From NCBI RefSeq assembly GCF_900105595.1, contig NZ_LT629784.1, positions 3,224,001 to 3,288,000 of the forward strand: a stretch of DNA of 64,000 nt. The letters are read 5' to 3'. The stretch is from Stappia sp. ES.058 (GTDB lineage: Bacteria; Pseudomonadota; Alphaproteobacteria; Rhizobiales; Stappiaceae). The notes beneath the pieces were generated by a model. That model was not told the DNA's origin. It did no database searches and was given only the letters and a program-made list of their open reading frames with translations. The translations under genes and the position numbers were made by a program. This document shows positions 1 to 14,896 of the stretch, piece after piece; within the stretch, counting starts at the first letter, position 1; each line of letters begins with the position of its first letter.

Positions 1-416
1 CGGTCGGCCAATAGCCCGATGCTGGCATAAAGCAAGCCCCATTGCGCCATGTCGACCAGGAAATCGAGCGTTCCGCCAAGCTTCGAGGTGCGCCCCGTGC
101 AACGCGCAAGTCCCCCGTCGACACAATCGAGGATCTGAAACACAATCGCGACACATCCCACCCCGAGCGCGGCCTGATCCACCGGGAGCGCAAGCGCGAG
201 CACGGGCATGGAAAGAGCTAACAGCAGGGACGAGACCGTGACCGCGGTCGGTGAAACCGGCAAGCGCGCGAGAAGCCAGATGAGAGGAAAACTCCAGACG
301 CGATAAAACACCATCACGGCCCAGTCTCCCCGCAACTCCGCCCTGCGCTTGTCCCTGCCATAGTCCTGAACGACCCTGGCAAAGCTCGGGACACCGTTCG
401 ATCCGTTGTTGCTCAC
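1..416 (-). CDS. CDP-alcohol phosphatidyltransferase (partial, C-terminus beyond left edge)
   Basis: The reverse strand reads through to the window edge without a stop. It starts at a GTG (416-414) preceded by a purine-rich GAGGG. About 138 residues are visible. They contain the full CDP-alcohol phosphotransferase signature D-x2-D-G-x2-A-R-x8-G-x3-D-x3-D, read as DCVDGGLAR followed by GGTLDFLVD, between hydrophobic helices. Enzymes of this family move a phospho-alcohol from a CDP-activated donor to an alcohol (inositol phosphate, glycerol phosphate, serine or diacylglycerol) in the inner membrane. Next to myo-inositol-phosphate synthase, nucleotidyltransferases and aminoethylphosphonate genes, it is a candidate head-group transferase. 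The substrate cannot be read from this fragment. It is divergent from the nucleotidyltransferase at 486. Confidence 0.85.
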   Translation of the reverse strand, partial: MSNNGSNGVPSFARVVQDYGRDKRRAELRGDWAVMVFYRVWSFPLIWLLARLPVSPTAVTVSSLLLALSMPVLALALPVDQAALGVGCVAIVFQILDCVDGGLARCTGRTSKLGGTLDFLVDMAQWGLLYASIGLLAD

Positions 417-485
417 CTGCCCTCTCTTGCCCCGCTGCCGGGCCTCGCCTATGACTGGATCGACTTATCATATTCTGGCGGTTCC

Positions 486-1256
486 ATGGTTGACATCACT
501 GCAATTTTTCTCGCGGCGGGGCGCGGCGTGCGCATGGGTGAACGTGGACGCATGACGCCCAAGGGGCTGCTGTCGATCGGCCCGGCAAGCTTTGTCGAGG
601 ATGCGGTTGCCACCTTGCGGGCGCACGGCCTTTCGTCGATACGCATTGTCACCGGGCATCTGGCGGACCACTACAAGACACTTGCGCGCGAGCGGCTGCC
701 CGACGCGGAACTGCGCCACAACCCCGATTTTGCCGACAAGGGATCCCTTCACAGTCTTCTTGTCGGCTTGAAGGGGGAAGCCGGGCCCTGCCTGTTGCTG
801 GAATCCGACCTCGTCTTCGAGCCACGTGCGGTGGAAGCCGTGATCGCCGATCCGGCGCGCGCCTCCCTGCTGGTCTCGGGCCCGACCGGCGCCGGCGACG
901 AGGTCTACGTCTGGGCGGACGATCGTGCGGGCAAGGCCTGCCTGAAGGACATGTCGAAAGACGCGGCGCGCTGGCCGACCCCTCATCACGGCGAGTTGGT
1001 CGGCCTGACCTATCTGACGGCCGACGCGGTGACGCGTCTCAACACGATCGGACCCGGCATGGTCGCGCAGGATCCGATGTCGGACTATGAAAGCGGGATC
1101 GTTGCGCTTGCCGGCACCGAACCCGTGATCTGCCCGAAGATCGACGATCTCGCCTGGGCCGAAGTCGACAACGAGACCATGCTGGCGCGCGCGGCGGAGC
1201 TCGTCTATCCACGCATCGCCGCGGCACGCAAAACCCACCCGCTAATGGGGACGTGA
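486..1256 (+). CDS. NTP transferase (MobA/LicC-like cytidylyltransferase), probable head-group activator
   Basis: A 256-residue nucleotidyltransferase-fold protein. The N-terminal nucleotide loop reads LAAGRGVRMG then TPKGLL (about residues 9-28). A later acidic motif LLLESDLVF and a C-terminal DDLAWAEVDNE match the metal-binding positions of sugar-phosphate, phosphocholine and phosphonate cytidylyltransferases. It would transfer NMP from an NTP (probably CTP) to a phosphorylated or phosphono alcohol or amine. Because the PEP mutase at 12230-13873 has its own fused nucleotidyltransferase, this stand-alone copy may serve inositol phosphate instead of AEP, but either is possible. It ends convergently with the LptG-like gene, the two reading frames overlapping by 15 bp (1242-1256). 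Confidence 0.8.
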   Translation: MVDITAIFLAAGRGVRMGERGRMTPKGLLSIGPASFVEDAVATLRAHGLSSIRIVTGHLADHYKTLARERLPDAELRHNPDFADKGSLHSLLVGLKGEAGPCLLLESDLVFEPRAVEAVIADPARASLLVSGPTGAGDEVYVWADDRAGKACLKDMSKDAARWPTPHHGELVGLTYLTADAVTRLNTIGPGMVAQDPMSDYESGIVALAGTEPVICPKIDDLAWAEVDNETMLARAAELVYPRIAAARKTHPLMGT

Positions 1257-2468
1257 CAGCGCCACCTGTGCGGCAAAAGTTCCAACCAGTGCGAAAACAA
1301 GGGCGATCCAGCTGCTGGTGAAGCCTGACAGGGCGCCAATTTCGCCCATCGCCCAGGACACCTTCGTAACCACGAGCGCGAAGTAGCCGCAAAGTGCCAG
1401 CCCCACGATCCGCGCCGGCGAAACGATCCGGCCGGATCCGGCAATCGGAGCCAGGCTGGCACCGAGCAGCGCATAGGCCCCCGGCAGGAAAAACGCCACG
1501 ACACGCCGCCACAGGGCCGCGTCGACATCCGGCCCTTTCAGCGGATTGTCGTCTGCTGCTAGCCGCTCGAGGGGGGCTTGCGGAAGGTAGAACGCCGGGA
1601 TCCCGAAATAGGTCAGCGTTTCCGGGAGCACGTCAAGGCGCACATCGAGCGTTGCGTAGCGTGAAATCAGATAAAGCGGATGCTCTGCATAGGCGTCCGG
1701 ATCGGCTTCGCGATCCGGCTCTCCCCTCTCCCCGCCGGGTAGATTTGCCCACAGATCCACATCATGGAACCGCCAGAAGCCCGGCTGGCCGGACGGCTCG
1801 GCCTTGCGCGCAACAAGAACATCGCGCAGATCGCCGGACACAACGCCACGATAAAGCTCCACGTCGCGCAACTCCGGTTCGTCGGTACGCACGACCCTGG
1901 CCCTCAACACATTGCCATTGACCACCAGCCAGCGCTTGTCCGAAAGCGCCCCTTTGGAAAACCGCGCGCCATAAGCGCCAAGCTGAAGTTCGGCCTGGGC
2001 GAACACGGCGGACGGGCGCCACCAGCGCTCCAGCCCCCCCTGAAGCGCACCGCTCAGACAGGCGAAGGCGGCAACCACCAAAAGCGTCTGGCGGGGCGAC
2101 CATCCCGCAGCCGCCATGATCGTCGTTTCCCGGTTGAACAGGCGGTAGAGTTCCGCGGCAAACAGCCCGATGAAGCAGGCCACGGGAAACAATCGGGTGA
2201 CAATATCCACCGCCCGATACCCGAGATAAGCAGCGAGCAATGCGCTCCCGGAACGACCGAGATCATCGGCACGTGCAAGGACACCCTCAAGGGTCTGGGC
2301 GAGATCGATCGCCCAGGCGATGATCAGGAACATCAGCATGACAAGGCCGGTCACCTTCAGGTAAAGCGCAAGCGCGCGGCGCCCGGCAATGCCGAAAATC
2401 GCGGCACGCGACCTGACGATTTCCGGCCGCCCCTCCCCGCCTTGCGCTTGCGCTGCCTGCATGGTCAT
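1242..2468 (-). CDS. LptG/YjgQ-like permease (lipid-export paralogue)
   Basis: A 408-residue membrane protein of the LptF/LptG (YjgP/YjgQ) family. It has three transmembrane helices in the first ~150 residues, a soluble beta-rich (jellyroll-type) region of about 150 residues, and three closing helices. The chosen ATG (2468) overlaps the stop of the upstream LptF-like gene as ATGA, indicating translational coupling. In the Lpt machine, LptF and LptG are the inner-membrane halves that pull LPS out for LptB. Housekeeping copies usually sit near lptD, pdxA or pepA, whereas this pair sits among PgpA-like, CDP-DAG-synthase-like and nucleotidyltransferase genes. I infer a paralogue that exports a lipid made by this locus; that is not shown directly. 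Confidence 0.75.
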   Translation of the reverse strand: MTMQAAQAQGGEGRPEIVRSRAAIFGIAGRRALALYLKVTGLVMLMFLIIAWAIDLAQTLEGVLARADDLGRSGSALLAAYLGYRAVDIVTRLFPVACFIGLFAAELYRLFNRETTIMAAAGWSPRQTLLVVAAFACLSGALQGGLERWWRPSAVFAQAELQLGAYGARFSKGALSDKRWLVVNGNVLRARVVRTDEPELRDVELYRGVVSGDLRDVLVARKAEPSGQPGFWRFHDVDLWANLPGGERGEPDREADPDAYAEHPLYLISRYATLDVRLDVLPETLTYFGIPAFYLPQAPLERLAADDNPLKGPDVDAALWRRVVAFFLPGAYALLGASLAPIAGSGRIVSPARIVGLALCGYFALVVTKVSWAMGEIGALSGFTSSWIALVFALVGTFAAQVALSRPH

Positions 2469-3688
2469 GCCCGTTCGTTCACCGGACGCAGCAGCGAGGC
2501 CGATCTCACGCCGATGACCGACGTCAGCACGAGCGCCAGACCGAGACCGATAGCCGCACCGAACGCGGCCATCGCGACAGGGCGGATCACGGCAATCTCG
2601 CCAAGCAGGGAACGCAGCCCGACATCGAGCACCAGCAGACCCGCACACGCGAGCGGCATGGCAAAATACCCGACAAGGCGGGCTGAGGCGAAGGAGCAGG
2701 CAAGCAGGGCAAGGAGCGGCGCGATAAATGCGGCGATGGCTCGTGCAAAGCGTTCGCCGGCAATCCGTCGCGCGGTCTGGCCAGTCTGGGTTTTTGCCGA
2801 GGCCGGATCAAGCGCCTCGAAAAAAGTCCATTCCTGTGCCACCGCGCCGCGCACCGCATGATGCAGGATGTTTGTCAGGCTGACGGGAATGGAAACATTT
2901 TCCACCTTCACCCGCGGGAGCACGGGCACGTCGTCCAGGTCCGTTCCACTGAGCGAGGACAGATTGGCGCCCCGTCCCCCGCGCAAAACGCTACCGGTCC
3001 GCGGCTTCGACCCGACGCGCACGAAGTCATAGGCAATCACGCGGCCCAGACCCAGGCTGTAGTTCCCTTCTGCATCGGGGCCGTCGAGCTGCCAGTTGCC
3101 CGCCTGGGTCACACGCCAGCTTCCCTCCTCGCCCGGCTGATGGACGAACAGGCTTTCATGTGGCGGAGCAACGGACGCATCGCTCAAGGCCGCAAAGGTC
3201 TTGCCGCGGATCGTCTCGATCAGCGTGCCCTCGCTCGGCTCGGTAATGCGGCGGAAGAGAAGATCGCTCTTCAAGGTGAAAATCACGGAGCGGGTGAGGT
3301 TCCTTGCAAGCGGATCGACAAAGCCGGACACTCCAAGGCTCGCCCCGAAAGCGCAAACGCCAAGCACCAGCGCGACCTTGAGCGGCAATGCAGGAGACAC
3401 CCCCGCAGCCGAAAGAGCGACCATCTCGCGCTCCTCGCGCGCTGCGACAAACGCGAAATACCCTCCGATGACGCAAGCAAGGGCAAGGGCAAAGTCGAAG
3501 ATTTCTGGAGTGGAAAGCAACAGGATCGACACGGCCGAAATGACGTCGCCGCCATTTCCTAGCACCTGCTCAAGAATGCCGGTGAGTTCTTCCGCCAGAA
3601 ACACAACCTCGATGGTGGCCAGGACGATGGCGACCTTCGCGACCACCCGCATCATCAGCGATCGATTGGAGATCGACCAGCCGATCAT
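2465..3688 (-). CDS. LptF/YjgP-like permease (lipid-export paralogue)
   Basis: About 407 residues from the ATG at 3688; the frame is open to 3826, and the ATG coding for MMRV twelve codons further in is an alternative start. The layout is LptF-like: an N-terminal helix (RVVAKVAIVLATIEVVFLA), two further helices around FDFALALACVIGGYFAFVAAREEREMVALSAAG, a periplasmic domain, then a C-terminal three-helix block. The motif REEREMVALSAAGVSP resembles the cytoplasmic coupling loop of LptF/LptG that meets the LptB ATPase. It is first in a two-gene operon with the LptG-like gene. No LptB-like ATPase is encoded nearby, so it would borrow one. Upstream lies a 22-bp palindrome shared with the divergent pgpA-like gene. 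Confidence 0.75.
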   Translation of the reverse strand: MIGWSISNRSLMMRVVAKVAIVLATIEVVFLAEELTGILEQVLGNGGDVISAVSILLLSTPEIFDFALALACVIGGYFAFVAAREEREMVALSAAGVSPALPLKVALVLGVCAFGASLGVSGFVDPLARNLTRSVIFTLKSDLLFRRITEPSEGTLIETIRGKTFAALSDASVAPPHESLFVHQPGEEGSWRVTQAGNWQLDGPDAEGNYSLGLGRVIAYDFVRVGSKPRTGSVLRGGRGANLSSLSGTDLDDVPVLPRVKVENVSIPVSLTNILHHAVRGAVAQEWTFFEALDPASAKTQTGQTARRIAGERFARAIAAFIAPLLALLACSFASARLVGYFAMPLACAGLLVLDVGLRSLLGEIAVIRPVAMAAFGAAIGLGLALVLTSVIGVRSASLLRPVNERA

Positions 3689-3791
3689 CACACGCCACCA
3701 GACGGCGACCGCACCGCGGGGCCGCCGCCGCGTCGGCGTTGTTCGTGAATGCGTCGCGGCATCGCGCCAGTTTCCGTTTCGTGCTAGATCA

Positions 3792-3813
3792 CCGGGCGAA
3801 CCGGTTCGCCCGG
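3792..3813. promoter_or_regulatory. 22-bp perfect palindrome, candidate operator in a divergent promoter region
   Basis: A perfect inverted repeat with arms CCGGGCGAACC and GGTTCGCCCGG and no spacer. It lies between the start of the LptF-like gene (3688, minus) and the PgpA-like gene (3888, plus). Position and symmetry fit a dimeric regulator controlling both sides. The GC-rich arms could also form a cruciform or hairpin. The regulator is unknown. Confidence 0.5.
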
Positions 3814-3887
3814 ACAATATTTCCACCCGCGTCGGCTGCCAAGTCCGTCACGCCGTGATTCCCTCACGTCATCATAGGCCGCAGCCC

Positions 3888-4346
3888 ATGCGACGTCTTG
3901 CCCATATCCTTGCGCTTTCCTTCGGCGCCGGTCTGTCCCCGGTCTGGCCGGGAACCGTCGGCGCGGCTGTCGGGATCCTCTTCGCGGCGGCTCTCCTGCC
4001 GCTTGCGCCGGTGCTGCAGGCCGTGGTTCTGGCCGCCCTGCTCGCGCTCGGCATCTGGGCGTCGGCCATCGTCGCCGCCGACACCGGCGAGGAAGACCCC
4101 CAGATCGTTGTCATTGACGAGAGCTTCGGCGCAGCCGCAGTGGTGCTCGCGCTTCCCGCCGAACCGCTGTGGTGGATCGCGGGCTTCATCGCCTTTCGCG
4201 CCTTCGACATCCTCAAGCCCTGGCCGGTCAACTGGGTGCAGGACAGCGTGCCGGGGGGCGCCGGCATTATGCTGGACGACGCCGCCGCCTCGGTTTTCAC
4301 GCTGATCGTTCTTTTGCCGATTGTTTACTTCATTCCCTCCCCGTGA
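3888..4346 (+). CDS. pgpA: Phosphatidylglycerophosphatase A-like lipid phosphatase
   Basis: A 152-residue inner-membrane protein with the PgpA signature blocks in order: SPVWPGTVGAA, an acidic EEDPQIVVIDE, the strongly conserved FRAFDILKPWPV, and GGAGIMLDDAAA near the C-terminus. PgpA removes the phosphate from phosphatidylglycerophosphate. PgpA homologues in Bacteroidetes inositol-lipid clusters are thought to dephosphorylate phosphatidylinositol phosphate. Its position beside myo-inositol-phosphate synthase, a CDP-DAG-synthase-like gene and a CDP-alcohol transferase makes the second role plausible here. It ends convergently, two bases from the end of the CDP-DAG-synthase-like gene. The start at 3888 gives a normal PgpA N-terminus, although the frame is open much further upstream. 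Confidence 0.85.
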   Translation: MRRLAHILALSFGAGLSPVWPGTVGAAVGILFAAALLPLAPVLQAVVLAALLALGIWASAIVAADTGEEDPQIVVIDESFGAAAVVLALPAEPLWWIAGFIAFRAFDILKPWPVNWVQDSVPGGAGIMLDDAAASVFTLIVLLPIVYFIPSP

Positions 4347-4348
4347 GG

Positions 4349-5299
4349 TCAGCCGGAAAGGCTCGCGACCACGATGAGGGCGGGACCGGCAATCAGCCAG
4401 GCATCAACAATATCGAGTGCACCGCCCTGGCGCGGCAGAACCGCCGGATAGTCTTTGACGCCCGACGCCCGCTTCAACCGCGACCCGGCAAGGTCGCCGA
4501 CCACGGCGGCCGCTGCGATGATCGCCGCAACCAGCAATGACGCGGCAAGGTTCCAGTCGAAGATCAAAGGCCCGACGAGACCGGCCGTCAGCGCGAGCAT
4601 CGCCCCACCGGCGGCGAGCCCCTCGATCGTCTTGCGCGGGCTGAGCACCGGGAAAGCCGGCCGCCGGCCAAACAGCTTTCCGCCGAGCAGCGCATAGCTG
4701 TCGTAGGTCTCCACCAGCAAAAACGCGAGCAGCAACAGTCCGGAGTTTGCGCCATCACGTGCCGCCGCCACGAAAAAAACGAGCGGCACAGCGGGAAAGA
4801 CCAGCACCTCCAGAGCGATTGCGAGAGGCTGATCCGGGTCTGACAAGCCGCGCCGGACCAAACTGGCGCCGGCCATCAGCACCGCCCCAACCCCGGCAAG
4901 GACCAGAAACGGTGCCTGCGCCGCCACGGTCCCGGCCAGCGCCAGCGCCACACCCGCAGCCAGAGGAAGCAGCCGGATCCGCAAGACGCTTCCTTGCCTT
5001 TCCCGAGCCGGAGCACGGCGCCGGAACGCCACTTGCGTCGCCTCGAAACCGACCCTGATCGCAAGGACGGCGAGCGCAAGGTCGAGGATCAGGCCGCCCC
5101 CGACAAAGGGCAGCACCGCAACGGCAACGATAACGACTTCCGTTGCAAAAACCGGCCAGATCTGCCGTGACTTTTCAGCGGTCGCGGGGATCACACTGGC
5201 AAGAGCCAAGGCAAGTCCGCCCAGCGCCAGCCCGGCGGCCACTGTCATTGCAACCGGCATCATCGGGACGGGGGTCAGAAAAAACGTTGATACGGTCAT
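4349..5299 (-). CDS. Divergent phosphatidate cytidylyltransferase (CDP-DAG synthase family)
   Basis: A 316-residue polytopic membrane protein (about eight hydrophobic helices) of the CTP_transf_1/CdsA family. SPRKTIEG corresponds to the CdsA SPKKTxEG motif. The C-terminal signature is recognisable as GSRLKRASGVKDYPAVLP followed by RQGG and LDIVD. The usual His before GG is Gln and the Arg in D-R-x-D is Ile, so it differs from standard CdsA at two signature positions. It should make CDP-diacylglycerol, or another CDP-lipid, from CTP. It is the last gene of the SPT operon; its ATG abuts the stop of the ketosphinganine-reductase-like gene with no gap. Confidence 0.75.
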   Translation of the reverse strand: MTVSTFFLTPVPMMPVAMTVAAGLALGGLALALASVIPATAEKSRQIWPVFATEVVIVAVAVLPFVGGGLILDLALAVLAIRVGFEATQVAFRRRAPARERQGSVLRIRLLPLAAGVALALAGTVAAQAPFLVLAGVGAVLMAGASLVRRGLSDPDQPLAIALEVLVFPAVPLVFFVAAARDGANSGLLLLAFLLVETYDSYALLGGKLFGRRPAFPVLSPRKTIEGLAAGGAMLALTAGLVGPLIFDWNLAASLLVAAIIAAAAVVGDLAGSRLKRASGVKDYPAVLPRQGGALDIVDAWLIAGPALIVVASLSG

Positions 5300-6127
5300 T
5301 CAGCGGTCGTGCTTTCTCGCGATCCGCGTCTGATAGTATCGCAGCAGCGGCGAGAGGAGACTGTGACCATGCGCGAGCAGGCGCATCTGCGCGCCCGGTG
5401 CGACCAGAAAACGTCGGCGGCTTGCGCCTGTGACGATCTGCGCGGCAACCCTGTCCGCCGACCACAGCCCCCCCCCGGCTGTGATTTCCTTGGTCGCGGC
5501 CGGCTTGCTGCGGCTTTCCTCGACAAGCTGGGGCGTATCGGTGTCCGGCGGATAGGCAAGAGTTACGTGAATGCCAAGCGGCGCAAGCTCGACCCGCAGT
5601 ACCTCGGCCAGCCCGCGCATCGCGAATTTCGACGGCGCATAGGCGCCGTATCCGTAGATTCCGAAAAAGGCGGCTCCCGACGAGACAAAGACCAGATGGC
5701 CATGTCCGGTTGCGGCCATCACGGGCGCGATCGCATGCGCGACATGCAGCGCACCGAAATAATTGGTGCGCATCTGGTCCAGGTGATCGCCAAGAGGCTG
5801 CTCGACAAACCGGCCGGGGCGCGCGATACCCGCATTGAGCACGACCCACAATGGCGGCCCCATCTCCGCCACAAGCGCATCCAGGGAATGGGAAACAGAC
5901 CCTGCATCCCCGACATCAGTGGGATAGCAGTTCACCTGCGCGTCCCGAGCCTGCTCAAGAACGAGCCGGCGTGTCTCCTCCAGATTGTCGATCCCGCGCG
6001 CCAGAAGCGCAAGGTCGAAGCCGTCGCGCGCAAGCCGTATCGCGAGAGCCCGCCCGATCCCGCTGCTGCCCCCGGTGATCAGCGCCACGGGCCGGCGCGG
6101 TTGCTGCGTCCTGCCCGCGGCACCCAT
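5300..6127 (-). CDS. 3-ketodihydrosphingosine reductase-like SDR
   Basis: A 275-residue short-chain dehydrogenase. It has the NAD(P) motif TGGSSGIG (residues 18-25), LNAG (98-101) and the catalytic set Ser150, Tyr163 and Lys167. After the active site, APSKFAMRGLAEVLRVEL and then AYPPDTDTP (191-199) followed by EES-SKP-AT closely match the block characteristic of eukaryotic KDSR/TSC10 enzymes that reduce 3-ketosphinganine to sphinganine. The start at 6127 is preceded by GGAGG inside the end of the upstream gene, 4 bp away. It follows an SPT-like enzyme in the same operon, which supports a sphingoid-base role. Bacterial sphingolipid producers such as Caulobacter are reported to use a different reductase, so a KDSR-type enzyme would be unusual. 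Confidence 0.75.
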   Translation of the reverse strand: MGAAGRTQQPRRPVALITGGSSGIGRALAIRLARDGFDLALLARGIDNLEETRRLVLEQARDAQVNCYPTDVGDAGSVSHSLDALVAEMGPPLWVVLNAGIARPGRFVEQPLGDHLDQMRTNYFGALHVAHAIAPVMAATGHGHLVFVSSGAAFFGIYGYGAYAPSKFAMRGLAEVLRVELAPLGIHVTLAYPPDTDTPQLVEESRSKPAATKEITAGGGLWSADRVAAQIVTGASRRRFLVAPGAQMRLLAHGHSLLSPLLRYYQTRIARKHDR

Positions 6128-6131
6128 GGCC

Positions 6132-7244
6132 TCAAGCCTCCGTTTCGCCCGCGAAAGCCAGAAGACGGGCATAGCCTTCCGCGTCCTCGAACTGCACCGG
6201 CGGATGCTTGAACACGAAAGCGCTTGCATCCTCCACCGGACCGGAAAGCCCCTTGTCCCGCGCGATTGCCGCGCAACGGATGGCGATCAGCGCCATGGCC
6301 GCGGCATTCGGTGAATCCTCGACCTCCAGACGCATTTCCACATGCGTGCGCACGCCGCCGAACAACCGTCCCTCCAACCGGACATAGGCGACCTTGCGGT
6401 CCTCCAGCCAGGGCACGTAATCCGACGGGCCGATGCGGATCTCGTTTTCCGACAGCCGCGAATTCATCGCCGTCTGCACCGCCTCGGTCTTCGATTCCCG
6501 CTTCATGGTGAGGCGGTCCATGTCCATCATGTTGAGGAAGTCGGTGTTGCCGCCGACATTCAACTGATAGGTCTTGTCGACCTTCACGCCGCGCATGTCG
6601 GCGAGACGCGCCAGCGCGCGATGCGTGATCGTGGCGCCGAACTGTGCCTTGAAGTCGTCGCCGACGATCGGAAGGCCGGCATTGCGAAAGCGCGCCGCCC
6701 ATGCAGGGTCGGAGGCAATGAAGACCGGGATGCCGTTGACAAAGGCACAGCCGGCTTCAAGCGCGCATTCGGCATAAAACTCTGTCGCCTCGATGGAACC
6801 GACCGGCAGGAAATTGATCATCACCTCGGCGCGCGCCGCGCGCAGAGCCTGGACCACGCCGCCCTTGTCGAGGGCCGGCTCCGGCGAGACCACGAAACTG
6901 CGATCCGGGGCCTGATTGCGCATGAAGGATGAAACGCCGTCCAGATCGGGACCGCGCATCACCGGCGCGGTCATGCCATCCAAGTCCTTGTGAAAGATCT
7001 CCGTACAATTGGGCAGGGCAATCGCCGCCTCGCCGACGGTGCGACCGACCTTGCGCGCATCGACGTCAAACGCCGCGACAATCTCCACATCTTCCGGGCG
7101 ATAACCGCCAAGGGTCGGAAACGCGACGCCAATCGCCTCATCGCCCAAAGCCCGGCAATAGGCGACACCTTGAACCAGCGAACTGGCACAATTGCCAGCT
7201 CCAACGATCGCGGTGCGGATCGGCTTGGCGGAAAAACCTGTCAT
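6132..7244 (-). CDS. ino1: myo-Inositol-3-phosphate synthase (short bacterial/actinobacterial type)
   Basis: A 370-residue protein of the Ino1 type found in actinobacteria and Bacteroidetes. It has an N-terminal Rossmann motif IVGAGNCASSLVQGV, then DVEIVAAFDVDARKVG, MINFLPVGS, CAFVNGIPVFIASD and GDDFKAQFGATITHR, followed by LNVGGNTDFLNM and the C-terminal SPNAAAMALIAIRCA. The enzyme converts glucose 6-phosphate to inositol 3-phosphate using tightly bound NAD+, the first step to phosphatidylinositol or inositol-phosphate lipids. Inositol synthesis is uncommon in alphaproteobacteria. The gene lies in an operon with SPT-like and KDSR-like genes, so I infer that it supplies an inositol-phosphate head group. 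Confidence 0.88.
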   Translation of the reverse strand: MTGFSAKPIRTAIVGAGNCASSLVQGVAYCRALGDEAIGVAFPTLGGYRPEDVEIVAAFDVDARKVGRTVGEAAIALPNCTEIFHKDLDGMTAPVMRGPDLDGVSSFMRNQAPDRSFVVSPEPALDKGGVVQALRAARAEVMINFLPVGSIEATEFYAECALEAGCAFVNGIPVFIASDPAWAARFRNAGLPIVGDDFKAQFGATITHRALARLADMRGVKVDKTYQLNVGGNTDFLNMMDMDRLTMKRESKTEAVQTAMNSRLSENEIRIGPSDYVPWLEDRKVAYVRLEGRLFGGVRTHVEMRLEVEDSPNAAAMALIAIRCAAIARDKGLSGPVEDASAFVFKHPPVQFEDAEGYARLLAFAGETEA

Positions 7245-7392
7245 GATCTGTGTCTTAACCCCTGCGCATCGTCCGATGCGGCAGACTGCGCCGGCACCGG
7301 CAGTTCTTGTGTTGTCACGCCGTTCCCTTGCGCGACGAGCCGAAGTGCATTGATCCGAACCGATCCGGCCGGATCGTACGGCACGTGCAGCG

Positions 7393-8043
7393 TTACTCTA
7401 TCTGAATGCGTTCCACCAGCGCCTTACCGGTGGCGCTTTCGCGGCCCATCACGAGCACCTCGCGCACGCGCGGCACAAGCCCGTCCTCATTGACATCGAC
7501 ATAGCCGTAAAGCGGCTGGAACACGCGGCCGCCGGCAGTCGCGGTGACTTCCGCGCGCCCCGGTTCCACCAGCTTGAGCGTCGCCTTTCGGTCGGCGTAG
7601 GAAACCACGTAGAGCTTGAAGACATTCGGGTCGTCGGTCGCCTGGGCACGAATGCCGAAGGCGAAATTGTCCTCGATCATCTTCAACGGCTTGCGCTCGC
7701 CCGTCGTATTGAACCGTCGCCAGTAGGCGACCACGGGTTCGTCCGGGTCGAGCGTGCCGTCGTCCAGGAAATTCGCGGCATAGACGATGGTATTGGAATT
7801 GGTCGAGCGCTGAAGGTAGAACAGCATTCCCGGCTCGTCGGGCTCGGGAAAATCGGGCCGCACGACCGGAATGTCGTCATGGATCTCGACACTGGATCCC
7901 CGCACGCTTTGCTCGCTGCCCGGACGAAGGCGCGTGCCCTCCTGGGCCGCAGGACCCGGCCCCGCTGCAAAATGGCTACCTGCAACGAAAAAGGCGCCAA
8001 GCACTGCGATCACGCACCACCGTGTGCCGCCGCGCTGTGCCAT
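7393..8043 (-). CDS. DUF4833 exported protein
   Basis: 216 residues from the ATG at 8043, which has a GGAG ribosome site 8 bases upstream. An N-terminal signal-like stretch (RWCVIAVLGAFFVAG) is followed by a globular domain with GMLFYLQRSTNSNTIVYAANF, PVVAYWRRFNTTGERKPL and EDNFAFGIRAQATDDPNVFKLYVVSYADRKATL, the pattern of the DUF4833 family. The function is not known. The signal peptide puts it in the periplasm or membrane-anchored. It lies between SPT-like and inositol-phosphate-synthase genes in one operon, so a role in handling or localising the lipid product is a reasonable but unproven inference. 148 bp separate it from the inositol synthase start. Confidence 0.7.
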   Translation of the reverse strand: MAQRGGTRWCVIAVLGAFFVAGSHFAAGPGPAAQEGTRLRPGSEQSVRGSSVEIHDDIPVVRPDFPEPDEPGMLFYLQRSTNSNTIVYAANFLDDGTLDPDEPVVAYWRRFNTTGERKPLKMIEDNFAFGIRAQATDDPNVFKLYVVSYADRKATLKLVEPGRAEVTATAGGRVFQPLYGYVDVNEDGLVPRVREVLVMGRESATGKALVERIQIE

Positions 8044-8109
8044 CGGCGTCGCTCCCTTTCGCTTTTCGACACATGCAGACATGGACTCTTGCACCGCTGA
8101 ACGGGGCGC

Positions 8110-9348
8110 TCAGGTGCCCGCAATCGCCGGGCGCGGCTCCGTATCGGCTTCCTCGAAGCCCGCCACGATTTCGGCGATGAGCCCGATGGCCCTTTCCATC
8201 TCGGCCTTCGTGTGTTCGGCGGAAATGAAGAAACGAATACGAGGAAGATCCTTGGGAACGCCAACCTGAACGATCGGAGGCGCATAGATCCCGGCATCAA
8301 GGAGGGTCTGCGATACGATCATCGTCTGCTCGGGGGTCGCAAAGAGAATGGGCACCACCCCACAACCGATCGCATCACCCGTGTTCAGTCCGCAGGCAAG
8401 CGCATGATCCCGAAAGAACTCGGAGTTGGCATGCAGCCGCTCAACCCGTTGCGGATTTGCCTTTAGATGGGTCAGCGCACCCTGTGCGGCTCCGAGTGTG
8501 GCCGGCGAGAGCCCGACGCTGTAAACGAAACCGGGCAGACAGAACCGAAGCCAGTCGATGACGGATTTTTCAGCACAGACGAACCCCCCGGAGGAAACAA
8601 AGGATTTCGACAAGGTGCCCACCCCCAGCTCGATACGTCTGGGGTCGATCCCGAAATGCTCGCACAACCCACGGCCAGTCTTGCCGAGCACACCATAGGA
8701 ATGCGCCTCGTCAACGAGGAGCCAGGCGTCATGCTTTTCCTTCATGTCGACAAGCCGGGGCAGGTCGGGGATGTCCCCGTCCATCGAGTAGAGGCCCTCG
8801 ACCACGACCAGCACATTCCGGTAGTCACCGCGACCGTCTTCAAGCTGGCGCTCCAGATCGTCCAGATTGTTGTGTTCGAACGTCCGGTACTCGTAGCGAC
8901 CGTTCTTGGCACCCACGAAAATAGAGTTGTGGGCAAGCTCGTCGATCAGCACCAGATCGCGCGGCCCCATCAGAAAGTTGATGAGAGAGACATTGACCAG
9001 ATAACCGCTGACGAGCGTCATGGCATCGCCAACGCCAAGGAACTCCGCCATCTCGGATTCGAACGCGCGATGGCCACTGCGCTCGCCGCCAACCAGCCGG
9101 GAAGCGCCCACGCCACTTCCAAGACGGTGCAGTTCCGCGCTCGAGGTTTCGATGACATCCGGGTGTTGACTGATACCGAGGTAGTCGTAATGCGCGAAAC
9201 TGACAAAGGGGATGCCATTGCTTTCGCAGATTTCCTTCTGCCGGTCGACGGGCAGAAAATATGGATTGTGACGTTCGATGATCGCCTTTCCGGCCAAGCG
9301 AAAGCGACGCTCGGCAACCACGGAAAAACTTGGCCGATCAGGCTTCAT
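8110..9348 (-). CDS. spt: Serine palmitoyltransferase-like alpha-oxoamine synthase
   Basis: A 412-residue PLP enzyme of fold type I. It has GSGVGASRLVGGERSGHRAFE (split motif near residues 78-97), VVEGLYSMDGDIPDLP (183-197), VDEAHSYGVLGKTGRGLCEHFG with Asp213 and His216, and the Schiff-base lysine in GTLSKSF (Lys248). Serine palmitoyltransferase joins serine to a fatty acyl-CoA or acyl-ACP to give 3-ketosphinganine. Relatives are 2-amino-3-ketobutyrate ligase, 8-amino-7-oxononanoate synthase and 5-aminolevulinate synthase. The DEAHS-x-G form and the HFG-DP spacing resemble SPT, including eukaryotic SPTLC2. It is first in the operon, with the KDSR-like reductase downstream, and that pairing favours SPT. 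A strong GGGGG site precedes the ATG at 9348. Confidence 0.75.
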   Translation of the reverse strand: MKPDRPSFSVVAERRFRLAGKAIIERHNPYFLPVDRQKEICESNGIPFVSFAHYDYLGISQHPDVIETSSAELHRLGSGVGASRLVGGERSGHRAFESEMAEFLGVGDAMTLVSGYLVNVSLINFLMGPRDLVLIDELAHNSIFVGAKNGRYEYRTFEHNNLDDLERQLEDGRGDYRNVLVVVEGLYSMDGDIPDLPRLVDMKEKHDAWLLVDEAHSYGVLGKTGRGLCEHFGIDPRRIELGVGTLSKSFVSSGGFVCAEKSVIDWLRFCLPGFVYSVGLSPATLGAAQGALTHLKANPQRVERLHANSEFFRDHALACGLNTGDAIGCGVVPILFATPEQTMIVSQTLLDAGIYAPPIVQVGVPKDLPRIRFFISAEHTKAEMERAIGLIAEIVAGFEEADTEPRPAIAGT

Positions 9349-9916: not shown

Positions 9917-11077
9917 TCAGGAGATCACTTTCTGTTTCATTTCTGACACAACCGCCTCCGCAACCCGCAGAAATGCCTCGATGGTGAGGAAATCGACTGC
10001 CCCGATGACACCCACCCGAAAGCTGCCGATGCCGGTCATCTTGCCGGCATAGATCGCATACCCGCCAAGGCGCAGTGCCTCGTAGAAGGACTTGAAGCAA
10101 AACCAGGCGTCGTCAGGTTCGACGAACGAGGCAATCACCGGCGCCTGCCGCGAAGAATCGAGGACAGGCTGGAACCCCAGACGGCCCATGCCGGCGAGCA
10201 GCGTGGCAAGGTTTTGCGAGTAGCGCGCGAGGCGCGCGGCCGGGCCACCTTCTTCCTCCAGTTCGGCAAGCGCCTCATCGAGCGCCGCAATCACATGCGT
10301 GGGCGGCGTGAAGCGCCACTGTCCGCCGTTCGCGAGCGCGTCCGCCTGTGCCTGAAGATCGAGGACCACGGATGGCGAGGCTCCACGCGCAGCCTCAAGC
10401 ATGTCCTTGCGGCACACGACGAACCCGAGACCGGGCACGCCCTGCAGGCACTTGTTGGATGAAGCCGCCATGGCGGCCAGTTCCAGCGCATGCATGTCGA
10501 GGGGAAGGGCACCAAACCCGCTCATGCTGTCGACCAACAACTGACGCCCTTCGGCACGCACGCACCGCGCGATCTCCGACAACGGATTGAGAAGTCCGGA
10601 CGTCGTCTCGCAATGAACCATGGCGACGAACCCGATCTGCGGATCAAGGCGAAGCCGGCGTGCAACCTCGAGGGGATCGTGCGTATCGGTTTCCGGCACC
10701 TCGTAGATTTCATGGGCGCGACCGCTCTTGCCGCAGATAGCGGCCATGCGATGGCCGTAGGCGCCATTCACCAACAAAAGAACGCGGTCACCGGCACCAA
10801 CGAATGTCGTCAGCATGGCCTCGACCGCGAACGTGCCGCTGCCTTGCAAGGGCACGCAGACATGATCCTCCGCCGTGCCCCCGGCAAGCGCGCGAATGCG
10901 CTCGAACACACTTTGCGACAGTTCGACGAACGCGGGGTCCCGCGATCCCCAGTCCCGCATCATCGCGGCTTTCACGCGGGCACTGGTGGTGAGTGGCCCG
11001 GGCGTCAACAGCACCGGCATGTCGCGGATCTCCGGTTGTCCGACGGTTGCCCGAGCCGCTGGCAGCTCGCCGGTCAT
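9917..11077 (-). CDS. phnW: 2-Aminoethylphosphonate--pyruvate transaminase
   Basis: A 386-residue class V aminotransferase of the PhnW/AEPT type. It has LLTPGPLTTSARVK near the N-terminus, LQGSGTFAVEA, LLVDSMSGFGALPLD (Asp183) and the PLP lysine in SSNKCLQGVPG (Lys209). It interconverts phosphonoacetaldehyde plus an amino donor with 2-aminoethylphosphonate. In this operon, downstream of PEP mutase and phosphonopyruvate decarboxylase, it runs in the biosynthetic direction. Its ATG overlaps the decarboxylase stop as ATGA. No phosphonatase (phnX) is present, which argues against a catabolic role. Confidence 0.9.
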   Translation of the reverse strand: MTGELPAARATVGQPEIRDMPVLLTPGPLTTSARVKAAMMRDWGSRDPAFVELSQSVFERIRALAGGTAEDHVCVPLQGSGTFAVEAMLTTFVGAGDRVLLLVNGAYGHRMAAICGKSGRAHEIYEVPETDTHDPLEVARRLRLDPQIGFVAMVHCETTSGLLNPLSEIARCVRAEGRQLLVDSMSGFGALPLDMHALELAAMAASSNKCLQGVPGLGFVVCRKDMLEAARGASPSVVLDLQAQADALANGGQWRFTPPTHVIAALDEALAELEEEGGPAARLARYSQNLATLLAGMGRLGFQPVLDSSRQAPVIASFVEPDDAWFCFKSFYEALRLGGYAIYAGKMTGIGSFRVGVIGAVDFLTIEAFLRVAEAVVSEMKQKVIS

Positions 11078-12222
11078 GCCGAGGGGCCCGCAAGATAGGC
11101 GCGAAAGCGGCGCGCAACGTCACGCGGAGCGACCGTCGGGCGGCCAAGCCCTTCCACGGAATCTGTCGACACCTTCACATGCAGGAGACGTGGTCCCGGC
11201 GTCGCGAGTGCCGCCTCGACGGCCTCTTTCATCGCATCAATGCCGCACACACGGGCCGCAAAGCGGTACCCACATGCGGCCGCAACCCCGGCGAAATCGA
11301 CGTTCGGCGACACGGTCGCCTGGCCGCCCGTCGACAGGTGACACCCATTGTCCAGAATGACATGTGTGAGATTGCCGGGGCCCTGCGCGCCGATGGTGGC
11401 CATGTTGCCAAGTTTCATCAGCGCTGCGCCATCGCCATCAAGAACCACGATCTCGCGCTCGCAGTTCAAGGCAGCGCCAAGACCGATCGCACTGGCACCG
11501 CCCATCGAGCCGACGCAGTAGAGGTTGCGCGGGTCATCGCCAAGCGTGAAAAGCTCGCGACCGGTATGCCCCGTCGTTGCGATGATGGCCGCACCCTCCG
11601 GCAATCGTGAGGCAAGGGTTTCGACCGTGTCGATGCGCCGGGCCGATGGCACATCGACCCCGAAGTCAAGAATCTCGGCGCGCGGCCCGGCCTTCACCGG
11701 CAGGTCCTGCAAGGGGCCGGATGATGCGACAGCCCCCTTGGGCTGAACCAGCGCGACGGGCTGGCCGGTCTCACCCATCAAACGGGTGGCTTCGGCGAGA
11801 CAGGGCTCAACCTCGTCCGCCTGTCCAGGAAAGTCGAGACGCCGCGCGCCGACGAGATCAAGCAGCGACTGGGTGATCTGCCCCATCATTTCGTGTTGCG
11901 GCTCGTCCTTGAGGCCCGGCTCCCCGCGCCAGGTCACCACCATCAGGGACGGGATCTCGAACGGATGATTGAGCGAGGTGATCGGATTGACCGCGTTGCC
12001 CAATCCGGAATTCTGGAACATCACCGCCGTCTCCCGCCCTGCCAGCCAGGCGCCGGCGGCTATTGCCACAGCCTCGCCCTCACTGGTCGCGCCGACATAG
12101 CAGGTGCGCGCGTCGGATATCGCCGCATTCATCAGCGGGGTCAGGAAGCTGCAGGGCACTCCGGTGAAGAAGTCGATCCCCTGGCGCCTGGCGGCATCGA
12201 GAAACTGTGTGGCTTCGATCAT
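11074..12222 (-). CDS. ppd: Phosphonopyruvate decarboxylase
   Basis: A thiamine-diphosphate enzyme of about 382 residues. The start is set at the ATG at 12222 (MIEATQFLDAARRQGIDFFTGVPCSFL); an ATG at 12240 would add six residues and overlap the upstream gene by 11 bp. The N-terminal PYR half carries GATSEGEAVAIAAGAWLAG. The C-terminal PP half carries the ThDP/Mg motif VVLDGDGAALMKLGNMATIG. It decarboxylates phosphonopyruvate to phosphonoacetaldehyde, the irreversible step that pulls the unfavourable PEP mutase reaction forward. It is flanked by pepM and phnW in one overlapping operon. Confidence 0.9.
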   Translation of the reverse strand: MIEATQFLDAARRQGIDFFTGVPCSFLTPLMNAAISDARTCYVGATSEGEAVAIAAGAWLAGRETAVMFQNSGLGNAVNPITSLNHPFEIPSLMVVTWRGEPGLKDEPQHEMMGQITQSLLDLVGARRLDFPGQADEVEPCLAEATRLMGETGQPVALVQPKGAVASSGPLQDLPVKAGPRAEILDFGVDVPSARRIDTVETLASRLPEGAAIIATTGHTGRELFTLGDDPRNLYCVGSMGGASAIGLGAALNCEREIVVLDGDGAALMKLGNMATIGAQGPGNLTHVILDNGCHLSTGGQATVSPNVDFAGVAAACGYRFAARVCGIDAMKEAVEAALATPGPRLLHVKVSTDSVEGLGRPTVAPRDVARRFRAYLAGPSA

Positions 12223-12229
12223 CTTGCGC

Positions 12230-13873
12230 TCACACCGCATCCCGCGCCTGAGCGAGATCCATCACGTCGTTTACGTTGCCCCAGTAACCGCGCACATAGA
12301 CGACCCCGATCGATTCGCCCTCGTCGGCCAGCCGCGTCAACACTGCGCCGAGATCGGCGGTATCGAGCACACCGTCGCGCTCCAACGCGGCAAGCGTCTC
12401 GCGGATCTTGCGCACGCCCTCGGCATTGGCGCGCATGAGGCCGATGAAGGTGCCGTTGCAATCGTCCGCGTTCTCGACGAAACGCGTCAGAAAGACAGCC
12501 TCCCCCGTCACGTCGAGATCATCGCCAAACGGTTGCGAACAGGCGACCGCATCCCGTGTCGCGCCATCGTGCGCCGCGAGGTCCGGCTCCGGATCGACAA
12601 GCAGCACGATATCCGCCGCCGCGTCTTCCAGAAGTGTCAAAAAGAACGGACGATAGAGGATATCACCATAGGAAATGATCGTGTCGCCCTCGCTCTGCGT
12701 CAGCGCGAGTGCGAGCGAGCAGGCCTCGCCGGTGCTTTCGAAAGTCGGGTTCAGCACCTTGCGAATGCCCGGGGTTGTCACCGCGTCCTCACGATAGCCA
12801 ACGACCACGGCGACGTCGGACACGCCATGCCGGCCAAGCGCCTCCACCTGACGCCCCAGAAGCGACTGGCCGCGCACGGAGACCATGCACTTCGGGCGTT
12901 CCGCCGTCAGATCGCCCAGTCCCTTGCCTCTTGTCGCAGCCAGAATCACGGCCCTCGCCGGATCGGTTGCCGAGAGATAGCGCTTCTCCGCCTGTTCCAG
13001 TTCCTGCGCCCCAGCAAGCGCGAACACATCGCCCAGCGGCGCGACGGCGTCCTCGACCTCCAGCAGCGATTCCTGCGACCGCAATTTGCCGCAAGTCTCG
13101 CGCATCGCCTGGATCGAGCTTCTGAGATTGTGGTTTGCCCAGATCACCATCGCCACATCGGCATCGCGGAAACGCTCGGTCGGCGTGCGATAGTATTTTG
13201 TCGGGATAACGACAACCGGGACCCGGTTTTCCCATTGCCGGCAGAAGTCGAGGATCTCATCCGCCGTGCTTTTCTTTGAATGAATGACGATCGCATCGGC
13301 ACCCGCATCGACATAGGCATGGGCACGGGCAAGCGCCTCATTGACGCCCCGACCCGCGATCAGCGCCTCGACACGGGCAACGATGGAAAAATCCGGATCG
13401 GTCTGCGTGTCCTTGCCGGCCTTGATCTTGCCGCAGAACTCGTCGACGTCCGCCAGCGGCTGGTTTTCGCCCAGGAAGGAGTTGGTCTTGGGAAAGATCT
13501 TGTCCTCGATGCACACACCCGCGATACCGCGCTCGCACAGCTTGCGCACGAAGCGGCGGAAATTGTTGAAATTTCCGTAGCCCGTATCGCCGTCGACCAG
13601 GATCGGCAACGTCGAGGCGTCGGACATGTATTCCAGCATGTCGAGAACCTGGGTCCAGGACAGCTCATTGTTGTCGCGCACGCCAAGCGTCGCGGACATC
13701 GACAGGCCGGACGCCCAGATCCCCTCAAACCCCGCCTCTTCGACGATGCGTGCCGACAGCCCGTTGTGCGCCTCCATCAAAAAGGCGAGGTCGGGACGGG
13801 TCAGCAGGTGTCGAAGACGGGTGAATTTCGACGCCTGTGTGGGCAACCGGTCGGGGGAGCCATCGAAATGCAA
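12230..13873 (-). CDS. pepM: PEP mutase fused to a nucleotidyltransferase (PepM-NTase)
   Basis: A 547-residue two-domain protein. Residues ~15-300 are PEP mutase, with [39 protein letters not shown], and the diagnostic EDK-x5-NS motif ([11 protein letters not shown], Glu123 to Ser132) that separates PEP mutase from isocitrate-lyase relatives. Residues ~308-547 form a nucleotidyltransferase domain, with [16 protein letters not shown] and [18 protein letters not shown] and a C-terminal [10 protein letters not shown]. PepM makes phosphonopyruvate from PEP. The fused domain probably makes CMP-AEP, the activated head group. I place the start at a TTG (13873) with AGAGGA six bases upstream; the frame is open to 14059 but the conserved region begins just after the TTG. 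The Gly of the LAAG loop is Thr (LAAT). Confidence 0.9.
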
Positions 13874-14089
13874 GGTCGGTCCTCTCGTATGCTCGAAGCA
13901 GTGCCGCAATCGGCATCGCGCCATTGGTAGCCAACACGGCGGCGAAAGGAAAGGCGGCTCACCACACAACAGCGCGCGCGACGGATGCATCGGCTGCGGA
14001 TCGTGGACATCCAGACGTCGCGGGTCGCAAGGTGATCCAGATCCCTTGGGCCGGCGCATTCGCGCGATATTCGGCCGAGGGCTGCGACC

Positions 14090-14896
14090 TCAAACGCGGA
14101 ACGTATAGTCGCCGGATGAATCCCTTTCCACATCGGGCGGGTAGGCCGCGTGCTTGTCGGCATAATAGGCGGCAAGATGATCGCCTTCGGACGCACGATT
14201 GTAGGTCGCGAAATACAGCCTGCGCTGCTCCCGCGAGCGATTGACGCTTGAACGGTGCGGACAGAAACTGTCGATCAGGACGACATCGCCGGGTTCGGTT
14301 TCCACCGGCACGAACGTCATCGTCTTCATGTCCTCGTCGCTCAGCGGTTCCCACTCGCGGAACATGCCGTCGCGATGATGGCCGGCAGCGAATTCGACGC
14401 ATCCGTTTTCCTGCGTCGCGGCGTCGATCGACACCATGATCGATACGAACCGGCTGGCATAATTCCACCAGCCCGCCTGCTGGTCCTGATGCGGCGTGAA
14501 ACCGGCTCCGCCCGGACGCTTGAAGTTCAGTTTTTCCTTGAAAAGCACGGCAGGCTCCCCGAGCGCTGCGGCAGCATACTCCGTCAACGCCCGGCCAAGC
14601 GCGGAAAACACCGGGGAATGGCGCTCGAGAAACTCCATCCGGCTGATGATACGCCGTTCTTCGGGATCCGTGAGCGTTTCGCCGTAGACCCAGTGCTGGC
14701 CGGGCCGTTCAGGAAGCGCTTCCAGCCGCTGGATTTCCCGCCCGACCGCAGCCAGGTCGGTCGGCGCAAACGCCTGTTTGACGAGCACGAAACCGTCCCT
14801 TGCATAGCTTCGGGTTTCGTCTTCCGTGATGGCGCGGGTGGTGAACGTCGATGCCGGCGCAAGGGATGAGACGGTGTGACGGCCCTCATCTGTCAT
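14090..14896 (-). CDS. Phytanoyl-CoA dioxygenase-family 2OG-Fe(II) oxygenase, candidate AEP hydroxylase
   Basis: 268 residues from the ATG at 14896 (AGGAGA seven bases upstream). It has the PhyH-fold iron ligands HQD (His136, Asp138 in FTPHQDQQAGWWNY) and the distal His214 in DSFCPHRSSVNRS, followed by arginines that would bind 2-oxoglutarate. It is first in the AEP biosynthesis operon. Family members in phosphonate pathways (PhnY, PhnY*) hydroxylate the C1 carbon of AEP. Here the setting is biosynthetic and no PhnZ-type oxygenase is present, so I infer formation of 1-hydroxy-2-aminoethylphosphonate or hydroxylation of the finished lipid. The exact substrate is open. Confidence 0.75.
   Translation of the reverse strand: MTDEGRHTVSSLAPASTFTTRAITEDETRSYARDGFVLVKQAFAPTDLAAVGREIQRLEALPERPGQHWVYGETLTDPEERRIISRMEFLERHSPVFSALGRALTEYAAAALGEPAVLFKEKLNFKRPGGAGFTPHQDQQAGWWNYASRFVSIMVSIDAATQENGCVEFAAGHHRDGMFREWEPLSDEDMKTMTFVPVETEPGDVVLIDSFCPHRSSVNRSREQRRLYFATYNRASEGDHLAAYYADKHAAYPPDVERDSSGDYTFRV

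Follow-up and report, generated by a model that had tools for sequence, protein, structure and literature searches.

What does a bacterium make with a block of about 18 adjoining genes in which relatives of inositol-lipid, sphingoid-base and phosphonate genes stand side by side? The block lies at the left end of a 64,000-nucleotide stretch of the Stappia sp. ES.058 genome (positions 3224001-3288000 of 4.63 Mb in a single contig; the window below means this whole stretch), and its core is kept in Stappia and several other alphaproteobacteria. An initial annotation had proposed a locus for sphingolipids with inositol-phosphate and/or 2-aminoethylphosphonate (AEP) head groups. That observation is confirmed and extended: the genes are real, intact and conserved as a block. 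The inositol chemistry, the ketone reductase and the AEP pathway of that proposal stood, whereas curated cut-offs for serine palmitoyltransferase (SPT) were missed and no ceramide synthase was recognised left of the window. We tentatively propose, with a little less than even confidence, that the block would make a single lipid of the outer membrane, add its decorations and export it. This lipid would likely be an inositol-phospho-sphingolipid that is glycosylated and carries AEP. The degrees of confidence given for parts of this reading are judgements, not computed values.

A core of seven genes kept together

Gene content, conservation and family relations are direct observations here. All genes named in the initial annotation are intact frames in one block, as judged by open-reading-frame reading and a Pfam scan (Table 1). 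The DUF4833 gene at 7393-8094 was not named in that annotation. The block extends ~4.9 kb to the left of the window edge on the same chromosome (flank L009). This extension holds a phosphatidylinositol phosphate (PIP) synthase-like transferase, an FGGY kinase, a Stealth protein, a PimA-like glycosyltransferase of family GT4 and the rest of a second cytidine-diphosphate (CDP)-alcohol phosphotransferase.

We compared the window with 20 other loci. Ten come from Stappiaceae (10 of the 14 other carriers in that family; G004, G006, G009 and G011 were not fetched), and ten from outside it: Maritimibacter (2), a Mesorhizobium metagenome-assembled genome (MAG), a Rhodobacter MAG, Pseudoruegeria, Salinihabitans, Thiosulfatihalobacter, Shimia, G062 and an uncultured Rhodobacteraceae. 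Seven core genes, encoding an alpha-oxoamine synthase, a DUF4833 protein, a myo-inositol-phosphate synthase (MIPS), a short-chain dehydrogenase/reductase (SDR), a CdsA-like cytidylyltransferase and LptF- and LptG-type permeases, occur together in 20 of the 21 loci. The sole exception is the uncultured Rhodobacteraceae contig (L046), which carries the oxoamine synthase and PhnW alone; in this genome (4-145) the oxoamine synthase is 69% identical, and a distant PepM (36%) lies on another contig. Because the seven core genes are kept together in 19 of the 20 other loci as well as in the window, the block is more than a chance neighbourhood.

The initial annotation had suggested a search for co-occurrence across genomes. 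Among 25 Stappiaceae genomes, 15 had the oxoamine synthase together with MIPS and the other 10 had neither, with presence defined as at least 75% and at least 79% identity, respectively, and the genomes being related rather than independent draws. PepM was missing from five cluster carriers. Five genomes of other families had a distant MIPS (48-53%) without the oxoamine synthase. DUF4833 was found in 3 of 398 sampled genomes of the phylum, all three of which carry the cluster. The block is rare, since the oxoamine synthase (E up to 1e-110) was found in 3 of 385 genomes of an even sample of the class. For nine genes, pairwise distances and the corresponding oxoamine synthase distances correlated at r 0.58-0.90, which fits joint descent; species phylogeny alone could also give the same.

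We consider it very improbable that this is an ordinary neighbourhood of unrelated genes for lipids, a solute (e.g. di-inositol-phosphate) and phosphonates. Such a reading can point to an AEP module that comes and goes. It has to contend with a gene order kept across genera with the co-varying divergence just described, and with the genome-wide co-occurrence of oxoamine synthase, MIPS and DUF4833.

Table 1. Genes of the block in window coordinates (negative positions lie left of the window edge)
Gene product	Position	Strand	Matches and remarks
PIP-synthase-like CDP-alcohol phosphotransferase	-4880 to -4230		left of window
FGGY kinase	-4164 to -2605		left of window
Stealth protein	-2497 to -1442	+	left of window
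PimA-like GT4	-1441 to -251		left of window
Second CDP-alcohol phosphotransferase	-309 to 416 (L009:11691-12416)	-	PF01066 34.7 bits; N-terminal part 1..416 in window
Stand-alone NTP-transferase, PntC-like	486..1256	+	T. denticola PntC 6pd1 best among solved structures, E 2.8e-35
LptG-type permease paralogue	1242..2420	-	PF03739 85 bits
LptF-type permease paralogue	2465..3700	-	PF03739 60 bits
PgpA-family phosphatase	3783..4346	+	PF04608 125 bits
Divergent CdsA-like cytidylyltransferase	4349..5299	-	PF01148 113 bits; T. maritima CdsA 4q2g, E 2.8e-14
SDR, predicted 3-ketosphinganine reductase	5300..6172	-	PF00106 131 bits; best solved match TSC10 8jat, E 2.1e-25
MIPS	6132..7244	-	PF01658; M. 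tuberculosis Ino1 1gr0, E 8.4e-106
DUF4833 protein	7393..8094	-	PF16117 95 bits
Alpha-oxoamine synthase	8110..9348	-	PF00155; best solved matches SPTs (3a2b, E 1.4e-58)
PhnW-type AEP aminotransferase	9917..11077	-	TIGR03301 406 bits, cut-off 361
Phosphonopyruvate decarboxylase (Ppd)	11074..12219	-	TIGR03297 406 bits, cut-off 312.5
Phosphoenolpyruvate mutase (PepM) fused to second NTP-transferase domain	12230..13918	-	TIGR02320 392 bits, cut-off 320; EDKX5NS motif
PhyH-family oxygenase	14090..14968	-	PF05721 99 bits; HxD and later PH motif

Rfam and tandem-repeat scans of window positions 1-17000 gave no matches. A 568-base gap (9349-9916), longer than in Maritimibacter (L047), separates the oxoamine synthase and PhnW genes. 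Between 9300 and 9960 we found no promoter-like (sigma-70-like) site, one terminator-like site against 0.7 in shuffled sequences, and no Rfam match. To the right of the block, at 16642-19776, lies an MmeI-type DNA methyltransferase/restriction protein; among the fetched flanks, that of G008 contains an 85% match to it, and that of G002 retains, by eye, only a short piece of its N-terminus (L064:7062-7313).

Predicted inositol, sphingoid, phosphonate and export genes

The firmest part of our reading is an inositol lipid, which we regard as very probable. MIPS has M. tuberculosis Ino1 as its best solved match and scored 396 bits against the 638-bit cut-off of the NCBIfam model mycothiol_INO1. 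The PIP-synthase-like transferase keeps the motif DxxDGxxARx8GxxxDxxxD together with S132, K135, R155 and R195 in 11 of 11 rows, and with the model NF040950 it scored 120 of 180 bits, under the cut-off. These four are given as inositol-phosphate residues of PIP synthase in the cited passage (PMC4634129). The GT4 matched PimA along its full length, residues 3-371 (5.2e-41 and 1.5e-40), the next best match being 3e-14 in the C-terminal half.

The CDP-alcohol transferase at the window edge was rejected as inositol transferase, being probably not one; the candidate for that role is the PIP-synthase-like enzyme further left. The window-edge protein has weak solved matches (AF2299 7e-5, CEPT1 0.01), keeps the same motif in 19 of 19 rows (window and 18 loci), and is predicted to transfer AEP or phosphoethanolamine. 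A CDP-inositol route through the stand-alone nucleoside-triphosphate (NTP) transferase was likewise dropped: the inositol-phosphate cytidylyltransferase 2xme matched at only 0.065, against 2.8e-35 for PntC.

PgpA is the sole match of its family in the genome, and the idea that it is a second copy was rejected on this account. By analogy with the B. thetaiotaomicron PgpA-like protein BT_1525, described in the cited passage as most probably a PIP phosphatase (PMC9246714), it is predicted to be an inositol-phosphate-lipid phosphatase. In the CdsA-like enzyme the catalytic pattern is conserved except that HGG is replaced by QGG in 23 of 23 rows; two other CTP_transf_1 genes occur in the genome. 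We predict that it makes a CDP-activated lipid. The authors of a Caulobacter study propose, in the part cited, that a CdsA-domain protein might form nucleoside-diphosphate-activated ceramide (PMC11324152).

That the block makes a sphingoid base is, in our judgement, probable. The SDR, annotated as a ketosphinganine reductase of the KDSR type, indeed has a 3-ketodihydrosphingosine reductase as its best solved match, and the oxoamine synthase has SPT 3a2b (E 1.4e-58). The pyridoxal-phosphate lysine, stacking His, Asp/His and carboxylate-binding Arg of this enzyme align with those of S. multivorum SPT, and a DEAH..GTLSK stretch is present; the whole oxoamine synthase family has these residues in common. 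In two trees the enzyme forms its own clade (100/98 in the first, 100/100 in the second). In the second, this clade and a polyketide-linked clade join the SPT rows (98/93), apart from the rows of 5-aminolevulinate synthase and glycine C-acetyltransferase, in trees that are midpoint-rooted, contain no verified BioF row and have L060 as a long branch. As SPT rows we took matches to NF047603, of which 1 of 13 exceeded its cut-off, together with L101, which exceeded the BetaP cut-off, and the E. coli gene annotated as spt. The genome also has two separate 5-aminolevulinate synthase genes (L002 4121309 and L003 791748), which at 651 and 602 bits are far over the cut-off.

The comparison that tells most is with the basal relatives of the oxoamine synthase, in G374 (51% identity) and Acidisoma (49.6%), each of which occurs with an SDR beside a YghO-family protein. 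The two YghO-type proteins are 57% identical, and that of G374 is 31% identical to E. coli YghO. In the cited passage, E. coli yghO is listed as a homologue of the Caulobacter ceramide N-acyltransferase gene CC_1154 (PMC9386255). Of the 8 alphaproteobacterial spt loci fetched, four (L124, L125, L127, L141) contain a member of the YghO family, and a partial match lies beside the spt of a fifth genome (L091). Because its basal relatives adjoin YghO-type proteins, the oxoamine synthase clade has ceramide-type neighbours, and this favours a sphingolipid role.

Two other amino donors were considered. A phosphonoalanine-using oxoamine synthase, giving a capnine-like phosphonolipid, was dropped, as five core carriers are without PepM. 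Were O-phosphoserine the donor, no lipid kinase would be required.

PepM, Ppd and PhnW all exceed the NCBIfam curated cut-offs, and the full AEP pathway with a nucleotidyltransferase claimed for the locus is thus borne out. In all 20 rows, drawn from 18 cluster genomes, the stand-alone NTP-transferase has the equivalents of Glu104 and Glu196 of PntC, two residues that contact the AEP amine according to the passage cited (PMC6697681). The enzyme is predicted to be a cytidine-triphosphate:AEP (or phosphoethanolamine) cytidylyltransferase. In the NTP-transferase domain fused to PepM both glutamates are absent (0 of 15 rows), and this domain may activate a phosphonate other than AEP. Of 22 genomes tested for PepM, 16 gave a match over the cut-off: all 10 of the Stappiaceae carriers included, the two Maritimibacter, the Mesorhizobium MAG, Salinihabitans, the uncultured Rhodobacteraceae (on the other contig) and G374. 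The negatives were a cluster-less Stappia-group genome (G001) and five carriers named below. Matches to PepM, Ppd and PhnW adjoin the oxoamine synthase in 14 of the 20 loci (Stappiaceae, Maritimibacter, Salinihabitans and the Mesorhizobium MAG). Inositol is part of the core of the block, and AEP synthesis is an add-on.

The PhyH protein is predicted to be an AEP 1-hydroxylase; its best NCBIfam model is a methylphosphonate hydroxylase (132 of 500 bits). It occurs in the window, G005, G008, G010 and G013 and in none of the other cluster loci read, and G374 has one beside PepM. In a Rhodobacteraceae MAG whose oxoamine synthase is 93% identical (L043, ~5440-7100), pepM aligns over its length and the frame from the match start closes after 7 codons. 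In Maritimibacter an extra frame on the opposite strand (L047:17292-18347), phosphatase/sulfatase-like by eye, lies between the LptG and PntC-like genes.

Export of the lipid by an Lpt-type route is fairly probable. The two annotated LptF/LptG-like permeases are a second pair among four such genes in the genome, one grouping with F-type rows (100/100) and the other with G-type rows (100/100). Similar genes lie near spt in 6 of the 8 alphaproteobacterial spt loci (L124, L125, L126, L128, L129 and L141; not L127 or L130), and annotated lptG and lptF adjoin spt in E. coli BL21. An AlphaFold2 model of DUF4833 (mean pLDDT 84; residues 1-42 below 50) is mostly beta, with strands from residue 47; the protein is predicted to be a periplasmic partner. 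None of 47 DUF4833 homologues carries a function name.

One lipid or several

We lean slightly towards inositol and the sphingoid base being on one molecule; that AEP is carried on this same molecule is, in our estimate, evenly balanced. Several observations weigh against a single such lipid. For the oxoamine synthase, glycine C-acetyltransferase 1fc4 (E 1.6e-55) nearly equals SPT 3a2b, and the scores lie below the cut-offs of all three curated SPT models (271/500, 264/640 and 201/670 bits). In both trees it falls outside the clade of known proteobacterial SPTs, and in the first the joining of its group with known SPT was not resolved. Its sister clade consists of enzymes beside polyketide synthases and capsule genes, including a paralogue in its own genome (at 1233996) and a gene of S. 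meliloti pSymB. On these grounds the SPT assignment of the initial annotation is not supported as it stood.

This sister clade brings up a different role, in which the oxoamine synthase and SDR would make a lipid anchor for a surface polysaccharide, and the inositol, sugar and AEP genes would decorate that anchor. The S. meliloti counterparts are an adjacent, polyketide-linked pair, and the role would be that of an RkpG/RkpH-type pair; the window SDR is 38% and the oxoamine synthase 42% identical to them. The Acidisoma relative sits in a capsule locus, and the block contains a gene of the Stealth family, which is tied to surface polysaccharides. We nevertheless regard this role as quite unlikely. 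Among its Pfam-scanned genes the block has neither a polyketide synthase nor a Capsule_synth gene, the linked transporter is LptF/LptG rather than a capsule ABC exporter, and a different copy, itself polyketide-linked, lies beside a Capsule_synth gene elsewhere in the genome. This second oxoamine synthase (G000:C1:1233996-1235138; L062:8933-10168), 43% identical, adjoins a 2527-residue frame that looks like a polyketide synthase, in an arrangement resembling that of S. meliloti. On the Acidisoma plasmid (L152 12867-24109), the YghO-type protein, SDR, oxoamine synthase and a sterol-desaturase-family gene lie within a capsule and LTA-synthase-family locus, possibly for a ceramide-anchored surface polymer.

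Two steps of the proposed sphingolipid route also lack a recognised gene. The initial annotation had suggested that a ceramide synthase might lie to the left of the window; none was recognised there (frames to genome position 3200001, seven of them scanned with Pfam), and no YghO-type match was found at E 0.001 in the whole genome. YghO-type proteins occur in 6 of 35 genomes (G374, G079, G106, G028, G052 and, as a weak match, G018); of the 22 genomes among these 35 that carry the cluster or an orthologue, G374 alone is positive. N-acylation and lipid phosphorylation are thus the two steps concerned. Among Pfam-scanned block genes we saw no acyl carrier protein, acyl-acyl carrier protein synthetase or DAGK-type kinase; frames under 80 residues and the rest of the genome were not searched. 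In a survey of loci and not of whole genomes, the Mesorhizobium MAG locus is the only one of 10 from outside Stappiaceae with PgpA; the gene is missing from the other 9, and from 8 of the 9 that carry the core. As the only copy in the window genome, it may instead have a housekeeping role.

These gaps would suit two separate branches, with MIPS, the PIP-synthase-like transferase, PgpA and the GT4 making a glycerol-based glycosyl-phosphatidylinositol of the mycobacterial mannoside type, and the oxoamine synthase and SDR feeding another lipid. MIPS, PIP synthase and PimA all have their solved relatives in diacylglycerol-based pathways, and neither a ceramide synthase nor, among the Pfam-scanned genes, a lipid kinase is at hand. 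Yet all 20 core loci carry a divergent CdsA-like gene of their own, although the window genome has two other CTP_transf_1 genes, and none of the 25 Stappiaceae sampled has the oxoamine synthase without a close MIPS, or the reverse. We consider separate branches unlikely.

For the head group, PepM is absent from five cluster carriers: G062 and four (Pseudoruegeria, Thiosulfatihalobacter, Shimia CNT1-13L.2 and the Rhodobacter MAG) that keep the PntC-like gene, whose substrate there is therefore not home-made AEP. Salinihabitans has PepM, and its locus holds no PntC-like gene, second transferase or GT4. The distant NTP-transferase homologue of G374 has one of the two PntC glutamates, and the related NTP-transferase in the G028 sphingolipid locus, with only 24% identity across 127 residues, carries NGD in place of the ESD of PntC. 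One could argue that the stand-alone cytidylyltransferase and the second CDP-alcohol phosphotransferase use phosphoethanolamine, and that the AEP genes serve another phosphonate by way of the fused PepM domain. The four PepM-less carriers would fit this, as would the fused domain, which may activate something else. We find it improbable, given that PepM, Ppd and PhnW adjoin the oxoamine synthase in most loci across several genera. Because those four carriers keep the PntC-like gene, the head group probably differs by carrier: AEP in those with PepM, and either phosphoethanolamine or scavenged AEP in the others.

For export, the position of the block's LptF and LptG relative to the housekeeping copies was not resolved in the tree, and BLASTP detected no similarity between the window pair and the E. 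coli spt-linked pair.

Proposed assembly and known systems

Our proposal remains a single inositol-phospho-sphingolipid, each reaction of which we infer. An acyl thioester would be condensed with an amino acid, probably serine, by the oxoamine synthase, and reduction of the resulting ketone by the SDR would give a sphingoid base. N-acylation by an enzyme outside the identified genes would yield ceramide, which would be phosphorylated by a kinase, also outside them, and converted to a CDP-lipid by the CdsA-like enzyme. Inositol phosphate from MIPS could then be placed on the CDP-lipid by the PIP-synthase-like transferase, with PgpA removing the extra phosphate to leave an inositol-phospho-lipid, to whose inositol the PimA-like GT4 would add a sugar. 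AEP from PepM, Ppd and PhnW would be activated to CMP-AEP (CMP, cytidine monophosphate) by the PntC-like enzyme and transferred to the glycolipid by the second CDP-alcohol phosphotransferase; PepM-less carriers would use phosphoethanolamine or scavenged AEP instead. Finally, the private LptF/LptG pair, perhaps with DUF4833 and a shared LptB, might carry the lipid to the outer membrane.

More doubtful, though worth stating, is the possibility that this is a bacterial counterpart of the eukaryotic glycosyl-inositol-phosphoceramides, made in Stappia and roseobacters by adding inositol phosphate to a CDP-activated sphingolipid, followed by PimA-type glycosylation, an AEP cap and export by its own LptF/LptG. 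If true, it would offer a direct test of CDP-activated ceramide, the idea put forward by the Caulobacter authors in the passage cited (PMC11324152). Scattered Stappia, roseobacter and related species would then have their own form of inositol glycosphingolipid, a class known mainly from eukaryotes and a counterpart of glycolipids of plants, fungi and trypanosomes, with a mycobacterial-type inositol route joined to a sphingoid route and a phosphonate cap. The block would also give a genetic basis for a phosphatase-resistant surface lipid and a further test case for Lpt-type sphingolipid export. No paper on inositol or phosphono-sphingolipids of Stappia or roseobacters was among the open-access literature matches listed.

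The mycobacterial phosphatidylinositol mannoside pathway, with Ino1, PIP synthase and PimA, shares with the proposed Stappia route the step order inositol phosphate, PIP lipid, dephosphorylation and glycosylation. Three block enzymes have solved mycobacterial or actinobacterial relatives. In Stappia, in contrast, sphingoid-forming genes and a phosphonate module are linked to these steps.

With the Bacteroides thetaiotaomicron cluster BT_1522-1526 the block has in common MIPS, a PIP-synthase-type CDP-alcohol phosphotransferase and a PgpA-like phosphatase, and there the inositol ends on a sphingolipid (PMC9246714, cited in part). The SPT (BT_0870) lies outside that cluster, and the AUR1-like BT_1522 is needed for inositol dihydroceramide, according to the same passages. 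No AUR1-like phosphatidylinositol-ceramide synthase was seen among the Pfam-scanned block genes, and the genome was not searched for one. The Stappia block adds the CdsA-like enzyme, oxoamine synthase, SDR, PimA-like GT4, LptF/LptG and AEP genes.

The Caulobacter/Rhodobacterial locus CC_1152-1168, as described in the passages cited (PMC11324152), has LptF2/LptG2, the CdsA-domain protein CC_1161, the CDP-alcohol-type transferase CC_1159 and an NTP-transferase around spt, and makes a phosphoglycerate head group. Here too, LptF/LptG paralogues, a CDP-alcohol phosphotransferase and an NTP-transferase lie close to the oxoamine synthase. The Stappia block, in contrast, has no AcpR, AasR, epimerase-type CerR, YghO-type CerS or recognised ceramide kinase; its inositol and AEP genes are additional.

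The phosphonyl tailoring (Pnt) pathway, with T. denticola PntC, shares PepM fused to NTP_transf_3, Ppd, PhnW and a PntC with AEP-contacting glutamates (PMC6697681, cited in part). The Stappia block differs in having two cytidylyltransferase domains and in being tied to an inositol/sphingoid lipid block. Finally, the phosphonosphingolipid of Bacteriovorax (Bdellovibrio) stolpii and the AEP-ceramide of Trypanosoma cruzi have in common with the proposed lipid a phosphonate head group on a sphingolipid; the passages concerned describe no inositol/Lpt gene block (PMC6148460, PMC5648825), whereas in Stappia the phosphonate genes adjoin one.

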